A stretch of 34,038 nt of DNA from a virus: the IMG/VR virus record IMGVR_UViG_3300017697_004009, positions 1 to 34,038 of that record. One strand, written 5' to 3'. The notes beneath the pieces were generated by a model. That model saw nothing but the letters and a program-made list of their open reading frames with translations. It did not search any database and was not told the DNA's origin. This document shows, in pieces, positions 2,703 through 20,300 of this stretch; the stretch's first letter is position 1, and every line of letters begins with the position of its first letter. Both the position numbers and the translations under genes were made by a program.

Positions 2703-2710
2703 TATTTATG
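2703..2710 (-). promoter_or_regulatory. T4-late-type promoter element CATAAATA
   Basis: CATAAATA differs by one base from the T4 late consensus TATAAATA. It lies 7 nt before the ATG of the fibre gene 1055-2695. The stop codon TAA of the upstream oxygenase gene is embedded in it. It would restart late transcription of the fibre genes downstream of the island. No -35 is expected for this class. Position and sequence are direct; function is inferred. Confidence 0.55.
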
Positions 2711-3590
2711 CTTTAATTAAAGGCTTTGTGTACCTGCTAAACGGAGTGTAATATCCCTCTAGTCGATTGTTGTATGTAGCGTCTGCCTTCATAAGGTGCA
2801 GTGTGAGTCCTGTTTTGTATTCGGCTCCCTGCTCTCTGAAATCTGTTGGTGCATGTAGAACACTAGAATCATGTATCAGTGCATCTTTTGGCCTCCATTT
2901 CAATATTTTTTCTATCGATAATCCTTCGTATATTGACATTGGTATATGCTTTGGCATTATTTTTTCCAATATGTGCATGTCCTTCTCATTGTGTTCTATG
3001 CCCTCTACTCCGTAATCCTCATAGGATTGATGTCTAATAACATTTGCGTAATTGGCAAAACTGCTGATATCTCTGCCCCTCATAAAGTGGGTCGCTCTGC
3101 CTCTGTATCTTTGGTTGAAAGTGACATAATGCGTCTCTTCTACCTTATCCAAATCTATAGGAATAATGATATCCTTGTAAGGTCTGTAGCCATTTATGTG
3201 GGTGACAGCATCTGTGTGTAGTCCGTAAGGTTTGACCGATTTGAAAAACTGATCGCCAACGCTCATAGGATCATCCTTTGCCACATCGCTGTAGAACACA
3301 ATATCATCGCCAAAATGTTTATATATTTTTGGTCTCACAATATCTGATATTTGTTTTATATCCATTGGATGCGTTATGTGTAGCACATGATCATTAATAT
3401 TCATTCCTATCTTTTCAAAATTATCTTTGAAGAAAGACGACAATACGTCACGTTCTACATCATTGATAAAATCCTTTACAACGTAACTTTCATCATATTG
3501 ACATTTGAAGAAAGAAGGATTAGGATCATGTATGATGTCCATGTTTTTAAGTGCTTCCTGTGAAAAAGGTCTATCTGTTTTGTATTTCAT
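2706..3590 (-). CDS. Fe(II)/2-oxoglutarate oxygenase-like protein (long form, last island gene)
   Basis: The product has 294 residues. A candidate metal triad is H125-x-D127 (in GLHTDAVTH) with the distal H246 in DSSVLHAPTDF. K259 in EYKTGLTLHL is placed to bind the 2-oxoglutarate carboxylate, as Lys does in prolyl-4-hydroxylase-like enzymes. Between them is the usual beta-strand pattern (IIIPIDL). Substrate unknown. The start ATG lies inside the end of the preceding gene (20-nt overlap), and that overlap is a near-copy of the one at 4193-4212. A weak AAAGG stands 12 nt before the ATG. The stop codon overlaps the late-type promoter of the fibre gene. It is more divergent than the other oxygenases, so the family call is good but not certain. 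Confidence 0.66.
   Translation of the reverse strand: MKYKTDRPFSQEALKNMDIIHDPNPSFFKCQYDESYVVKDFINDVERDVLSSFFKDNFEKIGMNINDHVLHITHPMDIKQISDIVRPKIYKHFGDDIVFYSDVAKDDPMSVGDQFFKSVKPYGLHTDAVTHINGYRPYKDIIIPIDLDKVEETHYVTFNQRYRGRATHFMRGRDISSFANYANVIRHQSYEDYGVEGIEHNEKDMHILEKIMPKHIPMSIYEGLSIEKILKWRPKDALIHDSSVLHAPTDFREQGAEYKTGLTLHLMKADATYNNRLEGYYTPFSRYTKPLIKA
3571..3590 (-). repeat. junction repeat copy 1 (start/stop overlap)
   Basis: Minus-strand sequence ATGAAATACAAAACAGATAG. It holds the start of gene 2706-3590 (MKYKTD) and, in another frame, the last codons EIQNR and stop of gene 3571-4212. It matches the junction at 4193-4212 at 19 of 20 positions and that at 8781-8800 at 16 of 20. Confidence 0.85.
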
Positions 3591-4212
3591 ATTTCGAATA
3601 AGACCTTTCTATTACATTGCTAGGAACTTTGCCACTGTATATCATGTGTAGCCTAGGCTCCTTACTTTTATTCTCCACCCAATGGTTATCAAATAGATTC
3701 ATCATGTTTACAGGGTTTGTATCGAAGTCTATAATTCCTGCCCTTTCATTATGGAAGTGGCAACCCTCTGGATTAGTGATAGCAACATTGGCACCATGTA
3801 AATTACTGTGTTGACTATCTCTGTGTACCCCTATGCTACCTCCAGGAAGAAGCCAACTGAAATACAGTCTGCCTATAAAGTTTTCTTCTTTAAAGGTATC
3901 TTTAAACCATTGCACTGTTATAGGACAGTCATTTGCCGCCTCTGTCCAAATATGTTTATTGTTGCTTATAAAACCATGCTGGTTGGAGTTTACTGTTGTT
4001 TTGCCAGGTGGCGGAGCAAACAGTTCAAGACTTTGCCATCCAACATGTCTAGAATCCATTGACCCATCTGTTTTGGTGTGTGGCGTTGCCTTGTCCATTA
4101 CTTTCTCCCATTCGCTGAAAATATCTTTTTGGGGGACGTCTATGTCAAGAGGCAAGTGACTTATACCACTTTCAAAAAGTATCCAGCCTGCACTACCTGT
4201 TTTGTATTTCAT
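3571..4212 (-). CDS. aspartyl/asparaginyl beta-hydroxylase-like oxygenase
   Basis: The product has 213 residues. The core LYFSWLLPGGSIGVHRDS holds H130-x-D132. The distal H177 lies in LFDNHWVENKS, and R187 in EPRLHMIYSG is at the +10 position expected for 2-oxoglutarate binding. The order (G-x-x-x-x-H-R-D, then N-H-W-V-x-N, then R-x-H) is typical of Asp/Asn beta-hydroxylase relatives. The target could be an Asp or Asn side chain of a protein or a small amino-acid derivative; this is family knowledge, not seen here. AGAGGA lies 6 nt before the ATG. The gene is bounded at both ends by near-identical 20-nt overlaps, so it looks like a removable cassette. Confidence 0.78.
   Translation of the reverse strand: MKYKTGSAGWILFESGISHLPLDIDVPQKDIFSEWEKVMDKATPHTKTDGSMDSRHVGWQSLELFAPPPGKTTVNSNQHGFISNNKHIWTEAANDCPITVQWFKDTFKEENFIGRLYFSWLLPGGSIGVHRDSQHSNLHGANVAITNPEGCHFHNERAGIIDFDTNPVNMMNLFDNHWVENKSKEPRLHMIYSGKVPSNVIERSYSKYEIQNR
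4193..4212 (-). repeat. junction repeat copy 2 (start/stop overlap)
   Basis: Minus-strand sequence ATGAAATACAAAACAGGTAG. It encodes MKYKTG at the start of gene 3571-4212 and, in another frame, EIQNR plus the stop of gene 4193-4675. It differs from copy 1 by one base. The two copies are direct repeats 622 nt apart, enclosing exactly one gene. Confidence 0.85.
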
Positions 4213-4675
4213 CTGGTATCCTCTTTACAATTTCTTTCCATGGGTGTCTTATACAAAACTTCAGCATCAGTCTGTCATAGTTTACTGGTTCTACCCAGTG
4301 TCTTAATTTGCCATTTTCCAATAGCACACATTCATAAGGTACCTGCTTATCTTCAACCACCATGACAGGTTGTTTGTCAAATAAATTTATTTGTATACTC
4401 GTCATATCGTCCTCATCCACATGTGGCGGAACATTGTTGTTTGCAAACAGATAAGCAAACCTGGGATATGTGTTCATACCCCATATTCCTAGGTCCTCTT
4501 CTACTTCCTTTGTAAGATGTCTTATATCTGAATCGTCGGGCAAGTATACTTTCCACCATGAAAGTTTAGGTTCGAATTTCTTCCATTGATACCATTCACC
4601 TCTTTGGTGTATATCATAGAATATTTTCCTATATTTTTCTTTGTCAATTTTGTAATTAAGATGGATCAAATTCAT
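4193..4675 (-). CDS. 2OG-Fe(II) oxygenase-like protein, small
   Basis: The product has 160 residues. The core FAYLFANNNVPPHVDEDD gives H85-x-D87. H126 in GKLRHWVEPVNYDR is the likely distal ligand, and R135, nine residues on, would bind 2-oxoglutarate. This is a compact single-domain oxygenase with no extra domain. A strong AAAGGAG lies 9 nt before the ATG and supports this start even though it falls 20 nt inside the upstream gene. Its own last codons (EIQNR) are written inside the next gene. Substrate unknown. Confidence 0.72.
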   Translation of the reverse strand: MNLIHLNYKIDKEKYRKIFYDIHQRGEWYQWKKFEPKLSWWKVYLPDDSDIRHLTKEVEEDLGIWGMNTYPRFAYLFANNNVPPHVDEDDMTSIQINLFDKQPVMVVEDKQVPYECVLLENGKLRHWVEPVNYDRLMLKFCIRHPWKEIVKRIPDEIQNR

Positions 4676-5138
4676 ATGCGTTGTCTCCTTTGAAAAATTT
4701 TAGGCATTTGTAAAATTCAATGCAATCTTCTATGTCATCTTCGAATGATATGTTCAAATTGATACGTTTGTTATTGTTGTTGAATACAGCATGTCTCGAC
4801 TGTGTGTTTAAAAACATAGGCGACGCTGTCTCACCTGGCTGGAATCGGCAAGGTGCGTAATCTTCCGTTAGTGGATATATCAAAGCAGTGTTACGCTTTC
4901 CGCCATCGGTGTGCCAATCCTGCACAGCATTTGGGCGTATCATAACCAGGTAACAGTTCCTGCCATGAAACGTTCTTTTCAAATCATAAAAATTTAAGAC
5001 ACTGGGTTTGCCGGTCCTTGTGGATTTGTGAACAGTCCAATCCTCGTCTTTCAAGTTCATACCTATATCCAGTAATTCTTGTTTTACTTCGTTGGATAAA
5101 AATTCTGGTAACTCGTAATGTGTTATATCACCAGGCAT
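4656..5138 (-). CDS. 2OG-Fe(II) oxygenase-like protein, small
   Basis: The product has 160 residues. YLVMIRPNAVQDWHTDGG provides H76-x-D78. H116 in NTQSRHAVFNNNNKR and R125 complete the triad and the 2-oxoglutarate site. The FLNTQSRHAVFNNNNKRINLN segment is typical of phage oxygenases of the prolyl-hydroxylase-like group. The ATG overlaps the upstream methyltransferase gene by 16 nt and is preceded by AGAGGA at 8 nt. One sampled 60-base line here (4801-4860) is 50% G+C, higher than the adjacent methyltransferase region, which hints at a separate origin. Substrate unknown. Confidence 0.75.
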   Translation of the reverse strand: MPGDITHYELPEFLSNEVKQELLDIGMNLKDEDWTVHKSTRTGKPSVLNFYDLKRTFHGRNCYLVMIRPNAVQDWHTDGGKRNTALIYPLTEDYAPCRFQPGETASPMFLNTQSRHAVFNNNNKRINLNISFEDDIEDCIEFYKCLKFFKGDNAYEFDPS

Positions 5139-5800
5139 CTGTGCAATCCTCTCATAGTGTTTCTAGGAAGTGTTGTGTCATGCCATGTTCCCCCCAGATG
5201 TTCGGCCAACCAATCGTCATCATAGAATGACCATAACCATTGTTCTGGCTTTTCTGTTTTGAGATAGAACACATCATGAGTTGATATCTGATCCCACATA
5301 TTAGGTTCAATATTTCTCCACTTGCATATCGCTTCGTATGCCTCTTTATCTCTGTTGGAATAGTAAGTGAGTAATAACTGATCACAATGCAATTTTAACA
5401 CATCAACTATAGGTTTGGTTTCTTCAAAAGTAAAATGTGTGAACACAGAAAAATTTATACACACATCATAATGACCTTTGATTTTAGGAAGGTGTTCCTT
5501 GCCCTCAGGATTATACATATAGTTGTATCCATCATAGTGTTCCCATTTGTACTGTGGGAAATCGAACTTGTTCTGATTACAAGTATCGAGGTCTATTTCT
5601 ATACCTGTGTAATTGCCATGTGGTTGAAAACTAATAAAGTTTCCGCGGCCGCAACCAAAGTCCAACACGCTCTTACCCTCAAACTGTGTGTACTGCTCAA
5701 AGTATTTGCGTAAAGACCCCCTAGCCCAATACTTGCCATACATATCTGTTTCGCCAGACTCGGCGTAACGTCTCTTTGCTTCCAACCCTACTTTATTCAT
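5123..5800 (-). CDS. class I SAM-dependent methyltransferase
   Basis: The product has 225 residues. Motif I is SVLDFGCGRGNF at about 44-55, followed by an acidic motif II (YTGIEIDLD) and a motif IV-like YDVCINFSVFTHF. This is the standard Rossmann methyltransferase plan. The acceptor cannot be predicted. A strong AAGGAG lies 5 nt before the ATG. The start overlaps the end of the CmoA-like gene by 8 nt (ATGAATAA), so the two are translationally coupled and probably act in one pathway. Confidence 0.8.
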   Translation of the reverse strand: MNKVGLEAKRRYAESGETDMYGKYWARGSLRKYFEQYTQFEGKSVLDFGCGRGNFISFQPHGNYTGIEIDLDTCNQNKFDFPQYKWEHYDGYNYMYNPEGKEHLPKIKGHYDVCINFSVFTHFTFEETKPIVDVLKLHCDQLLLTYYSNRDKEAYEAICKWRNIEPNMWDQISTHDVFYLKTEKPEQWLWSFYDDDWLAEHLGGTWHDTTLPRNTMRGLHRCLVI

Positions 5801-6497
5801 TTTGCTCCTTCATGGCAACCCCGCCTACGAACACATGATCCATCCAAAACGGTTGTGTCAATTTGAAATTAGCATCTGCCAACATGGTTTTTATTTCATC
5901 CCATGTGTTGGGTTTGAGCATACTTCTTAACTTCTTTTCCTTGTCTAATATTTCATCTGCACTAAAATGTTTTTCTTTGTAATCATAGTAATTAAATGTC
6001 AACATCTCTTGAAACTTTGCGTCTGAACAAATTATTTTTTCTGCAAATATAAAACAGCCTCCCTTATTAAGACCTTTATATATTTTTTTAATAACATCTG
6101 CCCTGTCTTTCACTGGCAAAAATTGCAGTGTAAACAGTGATGTTACTAGAGAACAATTATTAAATTCAAAATCACGTATATCTCCTTCTTTAAACTCAAT
6201 TTTAGTCTTAGGATATTTTCCTTTTATATCTTTTTCAGTTTCAATCAAACTATTATGAAAACCCTTTTCTACTTCTACGCCTATATAATTACAATCGATC
6301 TGATTTTTTGCTATTATTTCTTTCAACAAGTTTCCTGTAGAACATCCTATGTCTACCACATTTGTGTTCTTGTCTACAAAATACTGAGATAAATTTGTTA
6401 CATCATGCAGAAGATTACCGTAACCTCGTATAGATTTTGCTATGTGTTCATCGAAGTTTTCTGTCCCACCATGCCCAAAAGTAAATTTATGATTCAT
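5793..6497 (-). CDS. CmoA-like SAM-binding protein (carboxy-SAM synthase / methyltransferase family)
   Basis: The product has 234 residues, close to the roughly 247 of CmoA. It starts at the ATG on the complement of 6495-6497, which shares one base with the upstream stop (TAATG); a longer reading would need an upstream start inside the PP-loop gene. Shared with CmoA: FDEHIAKSIRGYG near the N-terminus, motif I VVDIGCSTGN (48-57), GDIRDF, FTLQFLPVKDRADVIKKIYKGL, and FAEKI. CmoA makes carboxy-SAM from SAM and prephenate for wobble-uridine modification. In a gapless alignment from memory, the carboxylate-binding Arg199 of E. coli CmoA falls on E187 here, so an ordinary methyltransferase is also possible. 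Confidence 0.72.
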   Translation of the reverse strand: MNHKFTFGHGGTENFDEHIAKSIRGYGNLLHDVTNLSQYFVDKNTNVVDIGCSTGNLLKEIIAKNQIDCNYIGVEVEKGFHNSLIETEKDIKGKYPKTKIEFKEGDIRDFEFNNCSLVTSLFTLQFLPVKDRADVIKKIYKGLNKGGCFIFAEKIICSDAKFQEMLTFNYYDYKEKHFSADEILDKEKKLRSMLKPNTWDEIKTMLADANFKLTQPFWMDHVFVGGVAMKEQNE

Positions 6498-7468
6498 TAT
6501 ATTTTTAATCCTTTTAAATGATGCACAAGTTTGTTGTACTCCCACGAATGCTCTGCGTTTAGATGTCCGTATTTTTCCATTAAAATAGTCCTACACTTCA
6601 AATCGAGATCCATTATCATTTCAAATCCAGTTTGCTTTTTATCTTGTGTAATGTTAGGAAATCCTTCTTCATAAATTTTTTTCTTGCTGAGTTCTATGTC
6701 TATTTCACCCCACTCTTTACATTCTGTTAAATGCTTTGCCCATGGATGCTGTAAGAAAGACAACAACACTTCAGGAGTGTATATGAAAAATCCAGGCACT
6801 GCTGGTTTTTGTCTTTGCATAGGATAACGAAAAATTGACATGTGTCTTTCATTCCTTTTAACGTACCAAGGCACTATTGGATAATTTTTTATTTCATTCT
6901 CAACTACCGTCATTGTTTTTATATCCCATTTCCAGTATTTGTGAAAATCCCTATGCACTATATTTGTGTTGTACCCTAACACAGGTAACCCTTCGACTTG
7001 ATCATATAACCATAAGAATGGTAGCATCTGTGGGCTGGGACAACTTGATAATTCTGCATATTCAAGTGCTTGAGATTCTAAAAACTTTGCAATATCTAAT
7101 TTACGTATTATTGGTTTAATGTTATTTGCATCACAAAACTTGTATGCACATGAAACATCCTGTACATTGAGATCGTTTTCAAATTCTGTAACATTGACAT
7201 TTACTGATATGTCCTGTTCTATAAAACTTCTCAGCATGACTTCACTATCAGCGCCACCACTATACATCACATCAACAGGTAATGATAATGCATCTGCTTT
7301 CTCTTTTATAAGTCTAGCAACTCTGTAACATTCTTCCTTAAATGTGCCAACTTTTCTTGTTGCCGGTCCGTACCCTGACCAAAATTTATCATCCTTATTT
7401 TCTCTTGCATTGTATTCTGTGCCATTGTATCCAAACTTAAAATGATTGTTTTCTGTGTATTCAAACAT
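6497..7468 (-). CDS. PP-loop ATP pyrophosphatase (asparagine-synthase/QueC-like superfamily)
   Basis: The product has 323 residues. A clear PP-loop, VMYSGGADSEV, has SGGADS at 70-75, the signature of N-type ATP pyrophosphatases that adenylate a carboxylate or carbonyl before attack by ammonia, sulfide or an amine. No zinc-finger cysteine set typical of QueC or TtcA is obvious. A pair of conserved-looking segments follows (SCPSPQMLPFLWLYDQ and LPVLGYNTN). The N-terminus HFKFGYNGTEYN resembles that of the next gene (HKFTFGHGGTENF). GAGGAATT precedes the ATG, which shares one base with the upstream stop. The activity class is sound; the substrate is unknown. Confidence 0.75.
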   Translation of the reverse strand: MFEYTENNHFKFGYNGTEYNARENKDDKFWSGYGPATRKVGTFKEECYRVARLIKEKADALSLPVDVMYSGGADSEVMLRSFIEQDISVNVNVTEFENDLNVQDVSCAYKFCDANNIKPIIRKLDIAKFLESQALEYAELSSCPSPQMLPFLWLYDQVEGLPVLGYNTNIVHRDFHKYWKWDIKTMTVVENEIKNYPIVPWYVKRNERHMSIFRYPMQRQKPAVPGFFIYTPEVLLSFLQHPWAKHLTECKEWGEIDIELSKKKIYEEGFPNITQDKKQTGFEMIMDLDLKCRTILMEKYGHLNAEHSWEYNKLVHHLKGLKI

Positions 7469-7989
7469 TATTTTAATTCCTCAAATCCAACATCGTGTAT
7501 TCCCATATGAAACACAATTCTTTCTTTTGACGGTGATCTTACTCCGTGAGGTTTCTTGGTATTAAGCACAACCATCGAGTCATACAATATACTGTCACCA
7601 TCTGTCCCGTCATCAAAATACAGTTCACCTGTGTTTTCCGTTATTGGGATAACAAAAGAACATTTACTTTTTACATCCGCATGAATAGGCAGTTCGCCTC
7701 CTTCTTTTACTCTAAAAAAATTACATCTAAACTCTTTAGGTCTTAATCCAAACTCGTTCCATATGTTTTTAATAAGCCTTAATAATTTACGATCAAAGTT
7801 GTTTATTTCCTGCACATAGAACTTGTTCATTTGTTTTCCGTCTGTTGCCTCATCCACATATTCAGAATACAACTTATTGCTGTCTTCCCACTTGCCGTTG
7901 AAATAGTCGTCCCAGAAATTTACTGGCACCTTATAATCAGTCTCAATAAAGAAGTTTTTATGCCATTTCTTTTGTATATGCTTTTTCAT
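7468..7989 (-). CDS. 2OG-Fe(II) oxygenase-like protein
   Basis: The product has 173 residues from the ATG at complement 7987-7989; an earlier TTG start is possible but lacks support. ELPIHADVKSKCSFVIPI contains H103-x-D105. LNTKKPHGVRSPSKER holds H148 and R157. GELYFDDG between them matches the strand that closes the double-stranded beta-helix. This start overlaps the TauD-like gene by 32 nt, the longest overlap in the island, and AGGAT lies about 11 nt upstream. Substrate unknown. The pattern of paired motifs makes the family call firm. Confidence 0.77.
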   Translation of the reverse strand: MKKHIQKKWHKNFFIETDYKVPVNFWDDYFNGKWEDSNKLYSEYVDEATDGKQMNKFYVQEINNFDRKLLRLIKNIWNEFGLRPKEFRCNFFRVKEGGELPIHADVKSKCSFVIPITENTGELYFDDGTDGDSILYDSMVVLNTKKPHGVRSPSKERIVFHMGIHDVGFEELK

Positions 7990-8800
7990 AATCAAATGCG
8001 ATCCTGTGTAATAATCTTTTTTGCATTCCACCAAACTGCCACCTTTTGTGTATACTCAGCCATTGTTCAGATATAACAAGATCTTTGTCTTGCCAATCAT
8101 GATGATAAATGTACTTTTCCTGTGTACAATGACTCTTTAAAAATGTATGTAATTCTTTCCATTGTTCTTTTGTTGCGCCGGACACTATATCATATGCTTG
8201 TTGAAACGGAAAATAAAGTCCTTTTTTGCCTTCCTTGTTCGTATGTACGATGTTGATAGGATTGTCATAATTAATTTTCTCTTTTGCAACTGCCATATCA
8301 CTGAAGGCGCCGACCTTGTAGCCGGATGCATATTTTATACCTTCTAGTTCCCTTTGCATACTGCCTGACAAATCGTTGTAGGCCATTTCTTGGTTTATCC
8401 AACTTGTACGTGACCCTGCACTACCCTTAACTGAGTACAACCAAACAAACGGATATCTTCGTTTGGCGTTTGCATGATGCGTGTGCCAATCTAGTTCTTC
8501 ATCATGTCCGAATAATCCTTTTTCACCTTTTGAATTCAGTTCTCCTGTAACCCTTATTACTCCAGGTTCTATTAATATACGTTCCTTTTCGTCGTCATTC
8601 TTGCCGTGATCTAGTTTAACGTTGCCGATGCTTGATGCAACTTGCATTTGGTCTTCTATTGTTAGATCTTGATTTCTGAAAATTACGACGTAGTGCCTAT
8701 TACACAGTCTCGCAACTTCGTGTAGTTGTTGCTGTGATAAACTTTTAATGTCCTCATCTATTGTGAGTGTCCAGCCGTTACTATCTGTTGATAATTTCAT
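7958..8800 (-). CDS. TauD/TfdA-family dioxygenase-like protein with an HxH motif
   Basis: The product has 280 residues, the usual TauD length. The N-terminal YVVIFRNQDLTIEDQMQVA matches the family's vvFR-q-l-t motif. The metal site reads LDWH106-T-H108-H109, where TauD-family enzymes have HxD. The distal H251 (SIHKRWQF) and R262 keep the 11-residue spacing of the TauD His/Arg pair. The Asp-to-His change is one base (GAT to CAT). It could mark an altered metal centre, a different ligand (H109) or loss of activity. The start overlaps the upstream oxygenase by exactly 20 nt in a junction repeat, with AGGAT just before. Confidence 0.78.
   Translation of the reverse strand: MKLSTDSNGWTLTIDEDIKSLSQQQLHEVARLCNRHYVVIFRNQDLTIEDQMQVASSIGNVKLDHGKNDDEKERILIEPGVIRVTGELNSKGEKGLFGHDEELDWHTHHANAKRRYPFVWLYSVKGSAGSRTSWINQEMAYNDLSGSMQRELEGIKYASGYKVGAFSDMAVAKEKINYDNPINIVHTNKEGKKGLYFPFQQAYDIVSGATKEQWKELHTFLKSHCTQEKYIYHHDWQDKDLVISEQWLSIHKRWQFGGMQKRLLHRIAFDYEKAYTKEMA
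8781..8800 (-). repeat. junction repeat copy 3 (diverged)
   Basis: Minus-strand sequence ATGAAATTATCAACAGATAG, 16 of 20 identical to the copy at 3571-3590. It encodes MKLSTD at the start of the TauD-like gene and EIINR plus the stop of the upstream oxygenase. The mismatches are four consecutive central bases; both ends are conserved. Confidence 0.75.
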
Positions 8801-9602
8801 CTAAATCCTGTTGTCCTTGTAGCGATATTATAATGTGTGATCGAGTTGTTGGACCTTTGTTCCAAGCACTGTGTCTCATTCCTTGATTCAAGAACCAGCA
8901 ACTGCCAGGTTCCATTGTTTGATAAACTTTCTCTCCAGACTTTCCAACACAGTAGAATCCACAATCTGCATTGGTTGTTATAGGTATATGGAAACGCACA
9001 GAATAATCAGTGTTATAATCAATGTGTTCTGCCACGTATGCACCAGGATCCATTATTGCTATTCTGGCCCTTGTGGTCTCTGCTTTGAAAGATGTTATTA
9101 CTTCCTCTAGGTATGTTCCTTTTACCCAGTCCTTAATTTTGTTGTAATGTCTTTCATCTAGTCTTGTTTTTGGAATCTTTTTATCGTAGACTCTTTTTTC
9201 TTCATTGGGATTGTATTGTGTCAGTGCTATCTGTTTATACGGAGATCCATTAACTTCATATTTGCCTTCCTTATCTTTTGCTATGTAGTTTTCAAACGGT
9301 TTCACATAGTTTCTGTAATCCCATGCCATTCTTTTATTACCTAATCCGTTTCTTAATTCTGACTCGTTTACATCATTGTCCTGTAAAAATTTATAAGCGT
9401 CTTCTATAGAATCAAACTTCAAACCAAACGCTTTCTGTAACTTAGGAGACTTACCCCCCACCTTGACTCCGTACCCGTACTTTGTTTTCAGATCATCCTC
9501 TGCTACAGGCATGTCCTGTACAACTTTGATCATTTTGTCAACATCAAACGTTTGCTCCAGTTTTACAAAAGGTGGTAGTTCGTATCTAGTCTTTAATTTC
9601 AT
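8781..9602 (-). CDS. 2OG-Fe(II) oxygenase (Asp/Asn hydroxylase-like) with a long N-terminal region
   Basis: The product has 273 residues from the ATG at complement 9600-9602, which has AAAGGAAG just upstream; a GTG 14 codons earlier is less likely. The catalytic domain is C-terminal: IAIMDPGAYVAEHIDYN (H193-x-D195), FHIPITTNADCGFY, then EPGSCWFLNQGMRHSAWNKG (H244) and R254. Residues 1-170 form a charged region, perhaps a substrate-recognition domain, that I do not recognise. The start overlaps the preceding gene by 17 nt. The triad spacing is textbook for the family. Substrate unknown. Confidence 0.8.
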   Translation of the reverse strand: MKLKTRYELPPFVKLEQTFDVDKMIKVVQDMPVAEDDLKTKYGYGVKVGGKSPKLQKAFGLKFDSIEDAYKFLQDNDVNESELRNGLGNKRMAWDYRNYVKPFENYIAKDKEGKYEVNGSPYKQIALTQYNPNEEKRVYDKKIPKTRLDERHYNKIKDWVKGTYLEEVITSFKAETTRARIAIMDPGAYVAEHIDYNTDYSVRFHIPITTNADCGFYCVGKSGEKVYQTMEPGSCWFLNQGMRHSAWNKGPTTRSHIIISLQGQQDLDEIINR

Positions 9603-10107
9603 AACTTCCTTTGTGTTGCCAGCATGACTCGTGTTTTGGATCACACACCGCTACTTTGCCTTCGTGCATGTTCCATTCTGTGTTTGTTTTTTTGCCTAGT
9701 TCTATAAAAAGTCTTTTCATAAATCCTGGGTTCCTGCATCTGCTAATAAACACTTTTGTGTAGCCTGCTTTTTTGGCGTATTCCAACTGGTGCTTTACTG
9801 TTGCAACCAAGTGTGGCCTTGCAATAATCCTGCCGTTCATTCTCAGTTTTGGATGTTCCCAATATCTATTTAATATCCTTGCCTCACCGGATTCATAATA
9901 TTCAGGTCTGTGCCAAACAGAACTGAAGCCTAGTATCTCATCATCCTTCATAAGCACAGTTATACAATCAAATGCGAACCAGTCTATGTCTTCGTAGTTG
10001 CTGGCTATCTCCTCGTTAGCAAAATCTATTTCCTTAAGCCGTTTTAAAATGTCAGTCCTGTCTTCCGGTGCGAAGCTCAACACGTCGCATTCGCTGTTCT
10101 TATTCAT
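9586..10107 (-). CDS. possible GNAT-like acyltransferase
   Basis: The product has 173 residues from the ATG at complement 10105-10107, 7 nt after the upstream stop and with TTGGAG upstream. A longer reading frame into the preceding gene uses a poorer start. The pattern ITVLMKDDEILGFSSVWHRPEYY followed by a helix (VKHQLEYAKKAGYTKVFISR) suggests the beta4-helix3 core of GCN5-related acetyltransferases, and a VAVCD strand near the end fits too. A clear acetyl-CoA pyrophosphate loop (Q/RxxGxG/A) is not evident, so I keep this tentative. It could also be a phage-specific protein of unknown fold. Its last codons (EIKD) lie inside the next gene. Confidence 0.5.
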   Translation of the reverse strand: MNKNSECDVLSFAPEDRTDILKRLKEIDFANEEIASNYEDIDWFAFDCITVLMKDDEILGFSSVWHRPEYYESGEARILNRYWEHPKLRMNGRIIARPHLVATVKHQLEYAKKAGYTKVFISRCRNPGFMKRLFIELGKKTNTEWNMHEGKVAVCDPKHESCWQHKGSYEIKD

Positions 10108-10114
10108 AAAATTT

Positions 10115-10699
10115 TTATCTCCAACTGTGAACACTGTCCCAAAACTCCTTTTTCTTTTTGCCATGCACCAATAGATGCACCCTCTCCTCATTTGAATTGT
10201 TTTCAACATAATGCTCATAATGAATATTCAACACCAACGGCATTCCAGGCACATAATCTACCTGTTTGTTGTTGAGCACAAATTTGTTGCCTTTTGGATA
10301 ACTTAAACAAATATTCAATGGTTCTAACCAATTGCGTTCTGGTACGTCTATGTGCTTTGTTATGTAACCGTTAGGTTTAATAACTAGGAACCTGATGTCA
10401 TCTATTCTAGCATAAGGCAAACTTTTTACCCACTCTATCGTTCGTGGACATCTTTCGCCCACATCTGTTATGCCAGGCTTTTGTTTTCTTCGGTCATACT
10501 CCCAATGACTATTTGTTTTTTCAGAATCAAATCCATATAGGGTGACTGCACACCAATCTTTGTGTCCATCCTCGGGTCTGTGTATTATTAATTTGTCTTT
10601 GATTAACTCGTACTCCGTTAATAGTTGTTTCACAGGAACATCAAAGTCCATCTGCACATATTCTACACTACTATCTCTGTCAAATGTTTGAGTATTCAT
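10115..10699 (-). CDS. aspartyl/asparaginyl beta-hydroxylase-like oxygenase
   Basis: The product has 194 residues from the ATG at complement 10697-10699. AAGGATCATC directly precedes it, which decides the start against an upstream TTG. FLVIKPNGYITKHIDVPE gives H116-x-D118. PLVLNIHYEHYVENNSNEER has the distal His (H163, or H160) and R173. The layout parallels the protein at 3571-4212 (G-x-I-x-x-H-x-D ... H-x-V-x-N-x-S). The start overlaps the desaturase gene by exactly 20 nt and supplies the desaturase's last codons. Substrate unknown; a relation to the desaturase pathway is possible only from adjacency. Confidence 0.77.
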   Translation of the reverse strand: MNTQTFDRDSSVEYVQMDFDVPVKQLLTEYELIKDKLIIHRPEDGHKDWCAVTLYGFDSEKTNSHWEYDRRKQKPGITDVGERCPRTIEWVKSLPYARIDDIRFLVIKPNGYITKHIDVPERNWLEPLNICLSYPKGNKFVLNNKQVDYVPGMPLVLNIHYEHYVENNSNEERVHLLVHGKKKKEFWDSVHSWR

Positions 10700-11243
10700 G
10701 ATGATCCTTGTGGTTCCCTTCAAACGGTGCAACTAAATTTATCAATAAATTGTTTGCGGGTCCTTTGGCATCATGTCCGTAAAAATTAAGTATACCAAAA
10801 CCCACATATGAAAGTATAAACAACATTAGGTTTATTATAACTGCATTTACGCCAAAAAGCAATGATGTTGTGATCCAGTGTGCGGCTAAAATAAATTTAC
10901 CGTACCTATGGAAAAACATCACTCTTGGATTTTTTATTAGATCTATCATGTATTTTCTTGGTATTTGTTTGACTTTCCAAAGACTGAACAGTATCACGTA
11001 CCAAGGATGGTTTTTTGGACTGTGCGGATCCTTTTCTGTGTCTGCATGAGCGTGGTGAATCCTATGCACACCTGCCCAAGTCAAAGCACTCCTGCCACCA
11101 CATAACAATCCAAGATACAATAACACAACTTCTGTTAATGAATTGGTCTTGTAATCGTTGTGTGAGAAATATCTATGATATCCGTAGGTGATACCAATGG
11201 CCGCTACCGCCCAATATATCATGTATCCGTATAAAACTATCAT
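10680..11243 (-). CDS. membrane fatty-acid desaturase-like protein, short form
   Basis: The product has 187 residues, against about 270-320 for acyl-CoA/acyl-lipid delta-9 desaturases. All three histidine boxes are present: H23-RYFS-H28, H60-RI-HH-A-H66, and H178-KD-HH182. These bind the di-iron centre that inserts a double bond into a fatty acyl chain. Hydrophobic membrane stretches lie at 1-20, 36-50 and 115-155. The protein ends five residues after the third box, so the usual C-terminal tail is missing. The N-terminal membrane hairpin is also shortened. The final codons are written in the start of the next gene. Likely site is the host inner membrane. Activity of so short a form is uncertain. 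Confidence 0.8.
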   Translation of the reverse strand: MIVLYGYMIYWAVAAIGITYGYHRYFSHNDYKTNSLTEVVLLYLGLLCGGRSALTWAGVHRIHHAHADTEKDPHSPKNHPWYVILFSLWKVKQIPRKYMIDLIKNPRVMFFHRYGKFILAAHWITTSLLFGVNAVIINLMLFILSYVGFGILNFYGHDAKGPANNLLINLVAPFEGNHKDHHEYSNI

Positions 11244-11950
11244 ACAAAATCCTTATAATCCTCCCAGTCATGTGGTTTATTTGTAGCATGAGTAAAATGC
11301 ACCATCTTTATGTCCGGATGGAACTCGCCACCCAAATAAACGTAATCGTTGCCAGTTACTTTTTCATATAACTGACTCGTCATAACCTTCCACTTATTTA
11401 AATCAAAATTCTTCACTCCGATGTCTTCCTTTGCACACCACCTAGCAACCCAGCTCTCAGGTACTGTAACTAACTCTAGTTCCTCATTTACATTGTCCTC
11501 AACAAAGTACTGCTCACCATTCACAGGTCCCTTTGCTATTCCCCTCTTGATGTAGTAGTTCTGCCAAAGGTCCGGATCTTCCATAAACTTGTCATAGATG
11601 TATCTGCAGTCTGTTGGATAATACTTAAAGAATCCACCATTTATCTTGTATCTCTTTTTTTCTGTGTCCCTCCACCAACCTGGTATGGAAAGGAATTGCC
11701 CTTTTTTGATAGGATACTCAAATAATTCTTTGTAATTGTTAACAAGTAAGATGTCGATGTCAATAACACAAATAGGTTCGTTTATATCCAAGCTCATTCC
11801 ATGCATTTTGTTCCACTGCAATAAAACATCCTCTCTAATTGGTTCACGTACCCATATGAATTCGTATTCTGGTAATTTTTCTTCTAGATATTTTTCGTAT
11901 TCTGGTCCATATCTGTCACCTATACGAACTGCCATTATCTTCATCGCCAT
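11240..11950 (-). CDS. glycosyltransferase-like protein (GT-A fold, DxD)
   Basis: The product has 236 residues. CVIDIDILLVNN carries D64-x-D66, the metal/nucleotide-sugar DxD motif, after a beta-alpha-beta N-terminus. INGGFFKYY and VNGEQYFVEDN further on resemble acceptor-side segments of GT-A enzymes. A C-terminal VHFTHA may supply a metal-binding His. It shares layout with the gene at 13306-13881 (FFDLDILINDN). The first ATG has GAGG 8 nt upstream; an ATG two codons on would make a 4-nt ATGA overlap. Donor sugar and acceptor are unknown. Confidence 0.68.
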   Translation of the reverse strand: MAMKIMAVRIGDRYGPEYEKYLEEKLPEYEFIWVREPIREDVLLQWNKMHGMSLDINEPICVIDIDILLVNNYKELFEYPIKKGQFLSIPGWWRDTEKKRYKINGGFFKYYPTDCRYIYDKFMEDPDLWQNYYIKRGIAKGPVNGEQYFVEDNVNEELELVTVPESWVARWCAKEDIGVKNFDLNKWKVMTSQLYEKVTGNDYVYLGGEFHPDIKMVHFTHATNKPHDWEDYKDFV

Positions 11951-12660
11951 TTCACTACCTCATCTAGTTTGGGTTTTTCAATCCAACTCTTATATTGCTT
12001 TGTATCCTGATCTCTATACCCAATACCTAAAAGAAAAGTCAGTCCTTTTCTCTCTAAAACGTCTGTGTGTATATGTTTATTGTAAAAGTAACACTTACAA
12101 AACGATACATCCAGGCCTTGCTCTAGTGCCAGCATTGATGTTACCATGGAATGCATTCCTGCCTGCATATTAAATTCATCTTTTGAAACTTTTGTAAGGT
12201 TGCTAAACACTTCAGATGCTCGACCTCTAGTAAAATATTCTCCTTGCTTTTGTGATTCCTTGACTTTTGCCTCAGCAGGATAATATCCTAGAAGATAAGG
12301 TGCAGTGACTTGCTCGTTGAAGTGCCATTTGTCCTTAATAACATATGACTTTGTCTCATCACCATGGTGAAAATCTAGCCAGTCTTGATAAGAGTTATCT
12401 AAATTTTTCCAATCCTGGTCAGTCAAGTTTGTTTGTCTATAGAAATCTTTATGTCCACTACACACAGTTGCTAGTGCTACTTTTCTTTTCTGTTCTTCGT
12501 GCTCTGGACCATACACATCTATTTCATAGTGCCAAAAGTTATTCTTGTGTGGTGTTAGATTATGAGCCTTTTCTATTATATCTTTTATGATTTGCTTGTC
12601 CGGTATCTTTTTGCTGAAGAACGTTATGTTACTTCTCTTTTTCAGGAAATCTTCTATCAT
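11941..12660 (-). CDS. nitroreductase-family-like flavoprotein
   Basis: The product has 239 residues. The N-terminus FLKKRSNITFFSKKIPDKQI followed by a helix and HNLTPHKNNFWHYEIDVYG matches the nitroreductase pattern (RRS...F...I, helix, P...N...Y.I.V). QAGMHSMVTSMLALEQGLD fits the FMN-site helix, and FLLGIGYRD the closing strand. Such proteins bind FMN and use NAD(P)H to reduce nitro groups, quinones or enone-like substrates, or act as dehydrogenases. Here it could supply a redox step in the island's pathway or electrons to the di-iron/Fe(II) enzymes; that is speculation. The start overlaps the upstream gene by 4 nt (ATGA). Confidence 0.62.
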   Translation of the reverse strand: MIEDFLKKRSNITFFSKKIPDKQIIKDIIEKAHNLTPHKNNFWHYEIDVYGPEHEEQKRKVALATVCSGHKDFYRQTNLTDQDWKNLDNSYQDWLDFHHGDETKSYVIKDKWHFNEQVTAPYLLGYYPAEAKVKESQKQGEYFTRGRASEVFSNLTKVSKDEFNMQAGMHSMVTSMLALEQGLDVSFCKCYFYNKHIHTDVLERKGLTFLLGIGYRDQDTKQYKSWIEKPKLDEVVKWR

Positions 12661-13313
12661 ATCTTTGTGCCTATCACCATAAAACGTTTGTATTTTACAA
12701 AATCTTTTTCGTAAAACTTCATGTTCCTTAATTTACCTACATACTGGTTGGCGAAATTTTCCATTGTGTCCACGTAATTAATATGTTGAGCAATTTCTTT
12801 ATAGTTGTTGCTCTGTAACACAACCAAAGTGTGTTCATCCAATTTTTCAATAGTAGAATAAATTATGTCTTGTTCCAAGTGCTCACAGGATGTGCATATG
12901 ACAATGGGGTCATTCAATTTGTCCAGTTCCTTTATATCTTTTTCAACAAACTTTATATAGGTTAGTATTCCGTTTTTCAAATTATCTGCGTCTACTTTTT
13001 TCCATAATCGCTTTGCAATTGGTTTTGCTCTTGGATCAAAGTCAATACAATCTATATTGCCAATTTTTTTCAATGTAAATTTTTCAAGCATTCTATACGC
13101 CAGTAGTCCGTACCAACTACCCAGTATAGATATGCCAAATTTTTTATCTAGGCTCTTGCATTTGAAATGATGGGGGTATTCATTAAGTTTTTCTATCAAC
13201 CAATCCTTGCTGGCATATTGATTAGCACTTAGGCTATCCAACACGTCTATGATCCTGTCAGGATAATTGTCCAATAATCTTTTAACCGTATCTAATGTGT
13301 CTCTATCAAACAT
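12657..13313 (-). CDS. Rossmann-type SAM methyltransferase-like protein
   Basis: The product has 218 residues. ISILGSWYGLLAYRMLEKF takes the place of motif I (GSWYG in a glycine-rich loop). IGNIDCIDFDPRAKPIAKRL matches motif II with an acidic residue after the strand, and DPIVICTSCEHLEQD the post-strand-4 region. Proteins with a GxWYG loop occur in marine myophages as class I methyltransferase relatives. The acceptor is unknown. The start overlaps the glycosyltransferase by 8 nt and no strong ribosome site is visible, so translation is probably by coupling. Confidence 0.62.
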   Translation of the reverse strand: MFDRDTLDTVKRLLDNYPDRIIDVLDSLSANQYASKDWLIEKLNEYPHHFKCKSLDKKFGISILGSWYGLLAYRMLEKFTLKKIGNIDCIDFDPRAKPIAKRLWKKVDADNLKNGILTYIKFVEKDIKELDKLNDPIVICTSCEHLEQDIIYSTIEKLDEHTLVVLQSNNYKEIAQHINYVDTMENFANQYVGKLRNMKFYEKDFVKYKRFMVIGTKI

Positions 13314-13881
13314 ATTTTTGATTGTGCAACAGTATTGTATTGTGTTTCACACCCTCCTGCCAACTGGATATTGCATCTCCCATGAAGTATTTGTACTTGA
13401 CATCCTCGTTGTATATAAATCTATCGATGCCGGAATACAATCTCACATATAAATCTCTATGCTTCATGAATCTTTCGAAAACTTTTGTTTCATCTGTCCA
13501 ACGCATGATGGACGAATTAACTAATGTGTTCTGTGTTATCCTAAATTTTACAGGTTCTTTCAAAGATTGTTGTTTCCACGGAGAACTATTCACCAATGTC
13601 AAACCATTAAATTCATTTGCTAAGAAATCTATGTTATCATTTATCAATATATCTAAATCAAAAAACAAACAGTTACCTGTGAACTGGAACAACGACAGTT
13701 TATGGAACACGCCCCTCAGTTCTGGGTGTGTGACCGGCTTGTCATATTCCTTCTCTGGCTTGTCTGTGAGGCAAGTGAATGTGTGTTCTAATGTGAGGTG
13801 CTTTGCGACGGAGTCCTTTAATTTTCTATCAAAGTCTCTATCATATTTCGTTCCAACATTAACACAATATACATCAATCAT
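13306..13881 (-). CDS. glycosyltransferase-like protein (GT-A fold, DxD)
   Basis: The product has 191 residues. The N-terminal strand MIDVYCVNVGTKYD is followed by GVFHKLSLFQF and CLFFDLDILINDN, with D75-x-D77 as the likely Mn/nucleotide-sugar motif. The K-L-x-L-F followed by a D-x-D strand is common in small glycosyltransferases that act on capsular or LPS-type glycans. The protein is short, so it may be a minimal catalytic domain. It overlaps the preceding gene by 8 nt. Together with 11240-11950 it makes two transferases in the island. Confidence 0.64.
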   Translation of the reverse strand: MIDVYCVNVGTKYDRDFDRKLKDSVAKHLTLEHTFTCLTDKPEKEYDKPVTHPELRGVFHKLSLFQFTGNCLFFDLDILINDNIDFLANEFNGLTLVNSSPWKQQSLKEPVKFRITQNTLVNSSIMRWTDETKVFERFMKHRDLYVRLYSGIDRFIYNEDVKYKYFMGDAISSWQEGVKHNTILLHNQKYV

Positions 13882-14344
13882 TTATTTTTTTATATTCTAT
13901 CAAAAGATCCATGGGTGTTTTTGCGGATCTCAATTTAGATTTTTGCTCTTTGTCCGCGGAATTCTTTAATTTTTTTGTTTCAAACATTTGAACCTTCATC
14001 GTGAACAGTATTTCCTTACACTCTTCGTTATTATGATCAAACTCTAATATTTTTTTCACAAAATCCTCAACAGATATCCTTTGCTTGACATCCGTTTTTG
14101 CTTTTATTCCAGCATCCACCATGTCACTTAACTGTTGTGCATATTTCCTGTTCCTTGCGATAGTGGCCTCTGCGATCTTGTCCGTGTCGTATTCCGCAAT
14201 TAGATCCTTGAAGTCTTGATTGTTGAAATCAACGGCAAGGTAATGGTTGATTGCTTTATCACCTTCCCTGTAGATAACTTCTACAGTGTTATTTTCTGAG
14301 TTTGCAAAATATGCCTCGATTATCTTTCCACTGAATATTGCCAT
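13874..14344 (-). CDS. hypothetical phage protein, first gene of the island
   Basis: The product has 156 residues. The N-terminal half (MAIFSGKIIEAYFANSENNT, INHYLAVDFNNQDFKDLI) is beta-rich; the C-terminal half is helical and charged (KKILEFDHNNEECKEIL, many K/E). I do not recognise an enzyme motif. Position after fibre genes suggests a fibre-assembly or chaperone-type protein, but this is only context. The ATG lies 6 nt after the TATAAT of a strong sigma70-type promoter and has no Shine-Dalgarno sequence, so a leaderless message is predicted. Its end overlaps the next gene by 8 nt. Confidence 0.6.
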   Translation of the reverse strand: MAIFSGKIIEAYFANSENNTVEVIYREGDKAINHYLAVDFNNQDFKDLIAEYDTDKIAEATIARNRKYAQQLSDMVDAGIKAKTDVKQRISVEDFVKKILEFDHNNEECKEILFTMKVQMFETKKLKNSADKEQKSKLRSAKTPMDLLIEYKKIND

Positions 14345-17322: not shown

Positions 17323-17330
17323 TATTTATT
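17323..17330 (-). promoter_or_regulatory. T4-late-type promoter element AATAAATA
   Basis: AATAAATA, one base from the T4 late consensus, lies 6 nt before the ATG of 16591-17316. The TAA stop of the giant upstream gene is part of the element. A start at the usual distance for T4 late promoters would fall at or next to the ATG. Confidence 0.5.
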
Positions 17331-20300
17331 CAGGTGAGTTTGTGGGTTCATCAGCAATGAATCGTGCCTGTTGCGTAGTAGAACCTTGTAACCCTCTACC
17401 ATCAGCAGGATTTCCATCCTTACCGGTATACCATACCTGTCCTTTCTTGTGTAATATCTTAATCTGCACTCCGTTATCTGGTACTGTTGTAAGCGTTACA
17501 TTATTTCCAGTAATAGAGTAGTTTATAGTCGACCCGTCCTCGCTGAGCATCAACAATCGTTGGCCACCAATGAATATGTCTATCTGGTCAGCGGGGATAC
17601 CAGTCGCCGGAGACGATTGGTTTAACGTTGTAGTTAGGGTCTGTGTTGTCGTAAATGTAGCAGTACTTCCATCACCTGTGAAAGTGTCTGTGTGTACTGT
17701 GTCTACATAAGGGATGGTTTGAGTACCAGACGCATCTACGACTTCCGTGCCTGATCCATGCTCCTTAATTCCTGTTCCAAGTGTTCCACGTTTGAGTTGT
17801 CCCAAAATATTGTTAGTCTTGGTAAAATATTCTATTCTCTCTTTGTCCACAAATATAACACCTGGTATTATACTGCTTACTGTTGATCCATCCAGATCTA
17901 TCACGGTCTGAGGATCGGCCAATACTGTTCCATCAGCAACCGCAATTTCTGTTGCGTCTGTGGCAAGAGTTTGTGTCAATGGTGTTGTGTTTGTTTTTGA
18001 AATTCGTTTGTAGAATGTCCTGTTAATCATGTCCTTGAATATCCTGTACCCCACCGAACCCGTTGCATTTTTCAGTGCGAAGTACATGACATCTAATCTG
18101 TCAGATGATGTTATGGTTTTGCCCGATATTGTTATAGTGCTTCCTGAAAGTGTGTAATCAAATCCCTGTGCCAACTGTTCACCATTCAACCAGACATACA
18201 TGTAAGAAGAATTTAGTGGTGTGTAATACAGTTCATGAATACCGCTTGGTCTTCCCTCTAACACTTCTCTTCTCATCTTAGTACCGAGAGCATTATTGAA
18301 AGTTGTCACCCTCAATACCGAACCATCTGTAAGAGTGTGGCCATCTGCGGCAATTTGAGTAGTGTCTAAAACCAATGCAGACGAACTGTCACCACCGTCT
18401 ATTGTGTAATGCTTGTCGACCAAGGTTGTTATGGCTATTACATCACCGTCCACTGCACCAGTACCCTGCATATGTACAGTCTGGTTAACAAGATCTACTT
18501 CGTAGTTTCCTTCTTGTGCAACTGTTCCCTCTACTAATTTTCTTCCATTGTAGTGAACCTCGATCTGATTTTTGTTAGTAATCACTTTGGCAGGATCAAC
18601 TGTCGAACCGTCGCTCAGTCCAGACACTATACCGAAGGAGTAAGTAGTGCCGTCACCTACGTAATATGTTGTATCCGGTCCCCTCAAAACTTTTCCATCC
18701 AGTTCCACTATTGTTAATGCATGGAAAGGTGAAACCGATCCTGGTGGGAACGACATTGGTAAAGTTGTTGTTGAACCATCATATGTTAGGTCCTCTGCTC
18801 TGATCTGTGCCACGCTTCTGGATGTGCCTGATTTTTGGAATCCTGCAATCTGTATAAAGTCTCCTGCACCTGGAGCCTCCGCAAATGTTATTGTTAGACT
18901 ATTCGAAAAACTGCTTCCTGATGATACTGCAGATGTGAACGCAGTTGTAGGCAATCCGTTCTTAGTCACATATATCTCAGATGCTGTTGAATCTATGTTG
19001 AAGTCTTCCCTTATCGATGTGACAAACTCTACAGTAGATCCATCGCCTGTGTACTGATCCAACACTCTGTAATTCTGTCCTGATATAGCAAATACTTTTG
19101 TTGTTATAATGCTGTTGTTGGCTGGTGCTGATGTAAATGTAATAGTCTTCGCCGCCACATCCACTGTGTAGTCCGCCGCAGTTGAGCCATCCAACGAAAC
19201 TTTTTTGACTACTCCATCTACCGCTACAGTTACCGATGCCAATGTGCCTGGATACTCTCCTATAGAAAAAGTTGTTGTGCTTCCATTACCTAAGTAACTT
19301 TTCTCAGTGATAAAAGGCACGCCCGATTCTGGCGAAGTGTACACCTTGATATCTAATGTATCAAAAATCTGTCCTGGAACCACTTCCTCAGGTGCATAGC
19401 TCGTTGTAGGTGACAGCATCTCGTCGCCGTCCACATTGATGTCTGACGGTGCTGATCCCAATGCTGAGGCGTAAAGTCCGTCTTTTGTGAACAGGCCTCC
19501 TTTCACTATAGAGTCAAGCGTCCTATCATCAGTTGGTGTAAGCACGCCATCGTCGTCTGCTGGTATTAATTCAATAAGTGCGTTTTCATTTTGCACCGGA
19601 ATAGAGGTTATAGTTTGAGCACTGCCTGTGCCAATGATCGTAGTAGAAATTTTTGTACGTGTGCTGTCATCCTGAGATACGTACACGTGATAAACTGTGC
19701 CCGATTCAAGTGTTGCGGTGTAACTGCTCGTTGTACCATCAGCCAAGAACGGAATTGTTCTTGATAGACCATAGTTGTCCCATGGGTAGTCATACCAAGC
19801 CGAGTTGTCCCAGCCCTGACTTTGATTGAACAGTAGACCCGTTACCATTGTTCCACCGTAGTCAACACCGGACATCACCTGCGAAAGTTCGTTGCCCGGC
19901 ATTCCAGACGATGGTGTATAGAAACCTTTGATCCTATCTGCGGCTGTCAGTCCGGATTCATCTCCATAATACTTGGTTACAGCACCTTCGTTGTCATCGA
20001 AGTCTGTTGTTGATGTAAATCTGCTTACGGCTTTGTACAATTCATTTTTGTATCTTATTTTTGCTCCATATTCGTATACTGTGTTTGCCTCCCAGTCGAC
20101 CACAGTTGATGTGCTTGAAATCCTGTCAAATTTGATTGTGGCATTGAAATCTCTCACTAGGTCGTTACCTAGGTTGGCATATGCTTTGGCAGGATCTGAC
20201 GGAGCAGAACCATCAATCATACCACCAGTAAGTGTCACAGTTGGTGTTGTAGAGTAACCAAACCCTACTCCAGTCAATGTGATCGAAGTCACTACACCTC

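Follow-up and report, generated by a model that had tools for sequence, protein, structure and literature searches.

Why do all eight candidate 2-oxoglutarate (2OG)/Fe(II) oxygenase genes of one marine phage gene island begin inside the gene that precedes them? The island lies in a 34,038-nucleotide stretch of DNA (positions 1 to 34,038 of virus record IMGVR_UViG_3300017697_004009; hereafter the window), and each of these genes starts 16-32 nt before its upstream neighbor ends. The original prediction took the oxygenase gene to be a dedicated module that carries a built-in stop in the alternative frame and is repeatedly added to the 3' ends of other genes. Based on our comparison with related loci, we think it likely that the overlaps are instead joints within a compact array of phage genes in which single genes come, go and change places. 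Under this reading, homology breaks at a start codon that lies within the overlap, and one gene, which starts at 4212 (F16b; family labels are in Table 1), has been caught between two copies of a duplicated overlap.

Related loci were gathered through a flanking tail gene (80 loci) and through the 4675, 9602 and 10699 families (about 95 more), and reduced to 114 non-redundant loci before genes were called. Oxygenases were sorted into families with iterated hidden Markov models (HMMs; 319 proteins). The related loci are metagenomic, all start calls are computational, and the junctions of members of one family are not independent of each other. An automatic conserved-start rule chose internal methionines for two families, and starts were then assigned by a hand rule, which takes the upstream ATG or GTG within 35 nt of the stop.

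The order of genes in the island varies among phages. F23-F22-F10b-F16b-F15 in the window is F23-F16b-F22-F10b-F15 in L006, L007 and L074, and F16b is absent from L010, L015 and L091. When the neighbors differ, homology breaks at the gene boundary. With the same upstream gene and a different downstream family (17 combinations), identity was 0.76 before the ATG and 0.48, then 0.31, after it. With the same downstream gene and a different upstream family (18 combinations), identity was 0.33/0.41 before the ATG and 0.69/0.77 after it. The profile was alike for oxygenases (9 combinations) and for other genes (9).

The start codon stays with the upstream gene. It was at the same position of that gene in 17 of 25 combinations. 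For example, the F23 end RCLVI* provides the start codon of three alternative downstream genes, depending on the phage (F22, F16b and one further gene), and the F20 end ..DLD (TTAGATG) does so for five and the desaturase end DHHEY for two; the ATG of F27 sits within the ..LDEI.. codons of its upstream gene. A Shine-Dalgarno (SD)-like motif precedes 53% of the oxygenase starts in long overlaps versus 9% of internal ATGs, and for seven of the eight oxygenase starts in the window such a site lies inside the upstream gene.

The stop codon comes from the other partner. The original prediction held that the 5' end of an oxygenase gene supplies a stop and the last few codons to whatever gene precedes it, and this was seen with different upstream genes for F15, F22 and F10a. 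The 5' end of F15 (KYKTDR) contains out-of-frame stops used by different upstream genes, and the family terminates three unrelated genes as ...QNR* (the 4675 gene, the 4212 gene and a 169-aa gene in L014). The F22 family uses two different built-in stops to end two neighbors, one after 16 nt and the other after 8 nt. F10a, through TGGCATAA, provides the stop to different upstream genes, and its family ends two of them with one TAA. Supply of a stop by the downstream gene is a textbook route to overlaps and is already published; the length of an overlap depends on which stops of gene 1 fall within gene 2 (Kingsford 2007, as discussed in PMC3887535).

The case of F16b shows what a change of partners can leave behind. 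In L006, L007, L010, L015 and L074, F10b joins F15 directly. Two of these loci, L006 and L010, have ATGAAATACAAAACAGATAG as the overlap, and the other three have slightly different versions of it. The window instead has F16b between the two genes, with a 20-nt overlap at both sides, and the two copies are 19/20 identical. The 20-mer or a near variant thus occurs twice in the window, versus once in L001, L005, L006 and L010. The N-terminal MKYKTG and C-terminal YEIQNR of F16b are residues of the repeat, and its homologues at another site begin MPGNLN, MSDNLN or MPGDLT and end ERGNNDV, ERGNSDA or EKDYRDA. At that site, in L006, L007 and L074, F23 and F22 are the neighbors, and a near copy of their overlap is present on each side of the gene (14/16 in L074). 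When starts of different families were compared with each other (139,009 pairs), three pairs reached 19/20 identity, and all three compare the F16b of the window with F15. Any gene placed between overlapping neighbors, both of which must remain intact, necessarily leaves two copies of their overlap, and this accounts for the two ends of F16b with no dedicated mechanism. The copies of F16b are just ~65% identical to each other.

Several other descriptions of F16b were considered. Misassembly is unlikely; both ends of the gene are in frame and the flanks match relatives. The 20-mer is not a widespread mobile element, as only two further exact matches were present in IMG/VR, both in relatives. 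A search for close relatives of the 4212 gene elsewhere gave none beyond the three genomes already known. F16b does not resemble a moron with its own promoter and terminator, in that its ends overlap both neighbors and leave no intergenic DNA, although no promoter scan was run.

Two further observations concern neighboring overlaps. In L007 (4672-4740), F20 has no TauD gene behind it, and its tail retains a piece of the TauD start. This tail looks like a deletion scar, the apparent reverse of an insertion, with TauD lost. In addition, the first 20 nt of the 8800 gene (window 8781-8800, ATGAAATTATCAACAGATAG) are similar to the beginning of the 3590 family (17/20 with L015), by chance or through exchange between overlaps.

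The length of the overlaps, about 20 nt, is explained by reading frame. Overlap length equals the distance from the start to the first stop in the frame of the upstream gene. For all eight oxygenase starts in the window this distance is 11-32 nt when counted in the 2 mod 3 frame; in the other frame it is 4 nt for seven of them. Overlaps in the 2 mod 3 frame have no 1- or 4-nt option, and those in the 1 mod 3 frame are usually 4 nt. We confirmed that seven of the eight oxygenase overlaps share one relative frame, 2 mod 3, and these junctions therefore have overlaps of 17-32 nt. Thus, 'same frame' and 'long' are one fact and not two. The median distance to a stop in this frame, across all loci, is 20 nt for oxygenases versus 20-32 nt for other genes, and the 'built-in stop' is nothing more than the out-of-frame stop that comes first in any gene.

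The apparent separation of oxygenases from other island genes did not survive a wider sample. The eight overlap lengths and their coordinates were exact on recomputation. The remaining genes, with their starts as first assigned, overlap by 8, 8, 4, 10, 4, 1, 1 and 8 nt, with one 7-nt gap. However, the claim that the two sets do not mix fails, both in the window and, in both directions, in relatives. The 7-nt gap depends on placing the start of the acetyltransferase-like gene F21, a non-oxygenase, at ATG 10107. The nearest relatives have no start codon at 10107, the family-conserved start is at 10134 (GTG in the window and in L006/L010, ATG in L015/L007), and AGGAG precedes the GTG; F21 therefore probably starts at GTG 10134, which would give it a 20-nt overlap with the upstream oxygenase. 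Within the window, the separation has p = 0.0005 with the starts first assigned and 0.002 with the corrected F21 start, both values being post hoc and from non-independent junctions. It was dropped as decisive evidence once the 114 loci had been gathered.

Short oxygenase overlaps in related genomes, which the original prediction had named as telling against it, were looked for and observed. Across the 114 loci, 69 of 74 oxygenase junctions overlap (median 16 nt), and 21 are 1, 4 or 8 nt. The oxygenase families of the window have short overlaps of 1, 4, 7, 8 or 11 nt in relatives, and across the families of the window genes overlaps range from 1 to 41 nt. Overlaps are 4 or 7 nt in 24 of 44 members of the 9602 family (also 17, 23 nt and more), 8 nt in 25 of 46 of the 7989 family, and 4 or 8 nt in 8 of 18 of the 5138 family. 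For the 10699 family they are 1 nt in 11 of 45 (range 1-32 nt), although lengths for this and the 3590 family depend on the start chosen by the hand rule. Conversely, overlaps of non-oxygenases reach 35 nt or more in relatives, and the 5800-family methyltransferase, a non-oxygenase, overlaps by 26 or 29 nt when it is behind an oxygenase. With the depositor's starts, the cultured pelagiphage Mosig has oxygenases with a 19-nt gap and overlaps of 4, 11, 17, 23 and 29 nt, and other genes with overlaps up to 26, 26, 29 and 35 nt. By gene-pair type, 16 of 40 oxygenase types have overlaps no longer than 10 nt, and among non-oxygenase types 35 of 114 overlap by at least 16 nt.

The comparison shows how these junctions are built where partners differ. 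The upstream gene retains its last codons, with an SD-like site and an ATG, and all sequence past the ATG is contributed by the downstream gene, whose first out-of-frame stop ends the upstream protein. Overlap length is then set by the distance from the ATG to the first stop in whichever frame the two genes happen to be joined. F16b takes its start from one copy of the 20-nt overlap and its stop from the other. Insertion, or the reverse deletion, may have come about through recombination, either illegitimate or at short homologies, with later selection for neighbors that remain intact, and translation of the embedded starts could begin at their own SD-like sites or depend on coupling. A more specific version, in which overlaps serve as interchangeable linkers, is possible, but we lean against it; genes would be inserted and excised as start-to-start units, short repeats would aid recombination, and a captured gene would need no start or stop of its own.

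Some of our results weigh against the joints as we describe them. The start was shifted by a few codons in 19 of 32 downstream-gene combinations, and the joints of F16b lie at the end of the overlap and not at its ATG. The combinations with changed partners are few, and several have one upstream family in common. Whether F16b was inserted here or deleted elsewhere is judged from its presence and absence. Finally, a mild bias of oxygenases toward longer overlaps is possible: the medians by gene-pair type are 14.5 nt for oxygenases (40 types) and 8 nt for other genes (114 types), with p ~0.10, and counting distinct junction lengths rather than types gives p = 0.011 for oxygenases versus island genes.

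These points do not restore a dedicated add-on module, which we now regard as very unlikely. The perfect separation in the window, with the starts first assigned, and the stops that F15, F22 and F10a supply to different neighbors are what such a module would give. However, relatives often have oxygenase overlaps of 1-11 nt, and non-oxygenases have the same joints and overlaps of 26-35 nt. A property of oxygenases is not supported: non-oxygenases join alike, oxygenases have short overlaps in the other frame or with other partners, and it is the upstream gene that provides the start signal. What stands of the proposed addition to gene 3' ends is that a gene was added at a junction in the case of F16b; that the module is special or specific to oxygenases does not. 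It is scarcely probable that overlaps of 16-32 nt are kept to couple oxygenase translation to that of the preceding gene, even with an SD-like site and an ATG inside the upstream gene. Coupling is known for short overlaps, but the same source (PMC10666635) stresses overlaps of 4, 1 and 8 nt and describes longer overlaps as uncommon, and lengths here drift from 4 to 41 nt inside one family.

Ordinary point mutation is a more serious alternative, but still an unlikely one. The upstream gene would lose its stop and run on to a stop in an unchanged neighbor, and the junction would be inherited. This is the standard model (Fonseca 2013, PMC3887535), most of the junctions here are vertically inherited, and the TauD/7989 overlap of 17, 32 or 35 nt with an unchanged start fits it. 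Yet it leaves unexplained both the identical starts before unrelated downstream genes and the duplicated 20-mer around F16b, and the junctions with changed partners show exchange and not extension alone.

We consider all eight genes sound candidates for 2OG/Fe(II) oxygenases (Table 1), four by Pfam (10699, 9602, 8800, 4212), two by predicted fold in Foldseek (4675, 3590), and two by a shared HMM family plus an HxD...H motif (7989, 5138). The HxD/E...H triad is present in 99.7% of 290 proteins of the oxygenase set versus 46% of the non-oxygenase set, and is weak evidence alone. F21 had no Pfam match at E 0.1 (9586-10107 searched).

Table 1. Genes and overlap copies of the island discussed here, named by family label, with the overlap at each gene's start
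Feature	Coordinates	Strand	Candidate identity and basis	Overlap at start	Remarks
F16a (10699)	10115..10699	-	Oxygenase; Pfam PF05118 (Asp_Arg_Hydrox) 2e-12	20 nt, 10680-10699	Overlaps desaturase 10680-11243
F21	9586..10134	-	Acetyltransferase-like, non-oxygenase		Probable GTG start 10134; conserved start column over 44 members
F20 (9602)	8781..9602	-	Oxygenase; PF05118 (Asp_Arg_Hydrox) 2.2e-12	17 nt, 9586-9602	
F27 (8800)	7958..8800	-	Oxygenase (TauD); PF02668 5e-29	20 nt, 8781-8800	
F10a (7989)	7468..7989	-	Oxygenase-like; HxD...H alignment, same HMM family as 4675/5138	32 nt, 7958-7989	
F23 (5800)	5123..5800	-	Methyltransferase, non-oxygenase		3' end ..RCLVI* holds start codon of downstream gene 16 nt ahead of own stop
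F22 (5138)	4656..5138	-	Oxygenase-like; shared HMM family	16 nt, 5123-5138	8 nt in L007/L074 after another gene
F10b (4675)	4193..4675	-	Oxygenase-like (P4H/AspH fold); Foldseek best match prolyl-4-hydroxylase 4j25, E 1.5e-6	20 nt, 4656-4675	
F16b (4212)	3571..4212	-	Oxygenase; PF05118 (Asp_Arg_Hydrox) 2e-11	20 nt	Between F10b and F15
Left overlap copy	4193..4212	-	ATGAAATACAAAACAGGTAG		End of F10b = start of F16b
Right overlap copy	3571..3590	-	ATGAAATACAAAACAGATAG		End of F16b = start of F15; matches left copy at 19/20 positions
F15 (3590)	2706..3590	-	2OG/Fe(II) oxygenase fold; Foldseek top matches all Fe/2OG enzymes, E 2.5e-5	20 nt	

The island (window 2706-14344) lies between two tail-gene paralogues (the 16587 and 2695 genes). 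This slot beside tail genes is variable; in most relatives it holds another gene set, some with a different Asp_Arg_Hydrox gene (for example, L019 8124-8792). Elsewhere in the window, 17326-30003 is a single open frame of 4225 codons, probably a giant tail protein. Marine T4-like phages rich in oxygenases, among them cyanophages (PMC3037559) and the pelagiphage Mosig (EXVC030M), likewise have several 2OG/Fe(II) oxygenases in each genome; in Mosig these adjoin tail-fibre genes. Mosig (L182, 16322-22575) has a similar set of Asp_Arg_Hydrox, desaturase, TauD, methylase and acetyltransferase genes beside the tail-fibre genes, with nitroreductase and MoaA-like genes nearby, and this set offers a lead to the function of the island. 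In contrast to those phages, the oxygenases of the window match few or no isolates (none among isolate phages for 4675 and 10699, three remote ones for TauD), and the island lies between paralogous tail genes.

Parts of this picture are already known, namely the supply of a stop by gene 2, phage joints at gene boundaries, and insertion with a duplicated end. Unidirectional overlaps have been attributed to a gene 1 that stops within gene 2 or to a gene 2 that begins within gene 1 (Kingsford 2007, Cock and Whitworth 2010, as discussed in Fonseca 2013, PMC3887535). As in the models discussed there, overlap length here follows from the stops of gene 1 in gene 2 and the starts of gene 2 in gene 1, and one phase has no short option. 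Relative to those models as discussed in that source, the difference is that partners are exchanged between phages and the overlap is a recombination joint, not run-on alone. The insertion of gene 68 in mycobacteriophage Island3, whose 3' end shares ~60 bp with the 3' end of its neighbor (PMC3029335), is similar in that a single gene lies between genes that adjoin in a sister genome, and a gene end is duplicated with the last residues and stop shared. Here, however, the repeat has just 20 nt and coincides with the overlap, and the extra gene obtains from it a start as well as a stop. The PeSL-type mobile regulatory cassettes of T4-like phages are marked by an early promoter plus a stem-loop at joints. 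The joints here are in coding overlaps. What our comparison appears to add is a joint at the embedded start codon and one extra gene that borrows both its start and its stop.

These junctions give a base-level view of how overlapping phage genes can be swapped without breaking their neighbors: the overlap is duplicated or re-used, and new protein ends arise as a by-product. The first residues and tails of such proteins track the neighbor and not function, and start positions are better called by family conservation.

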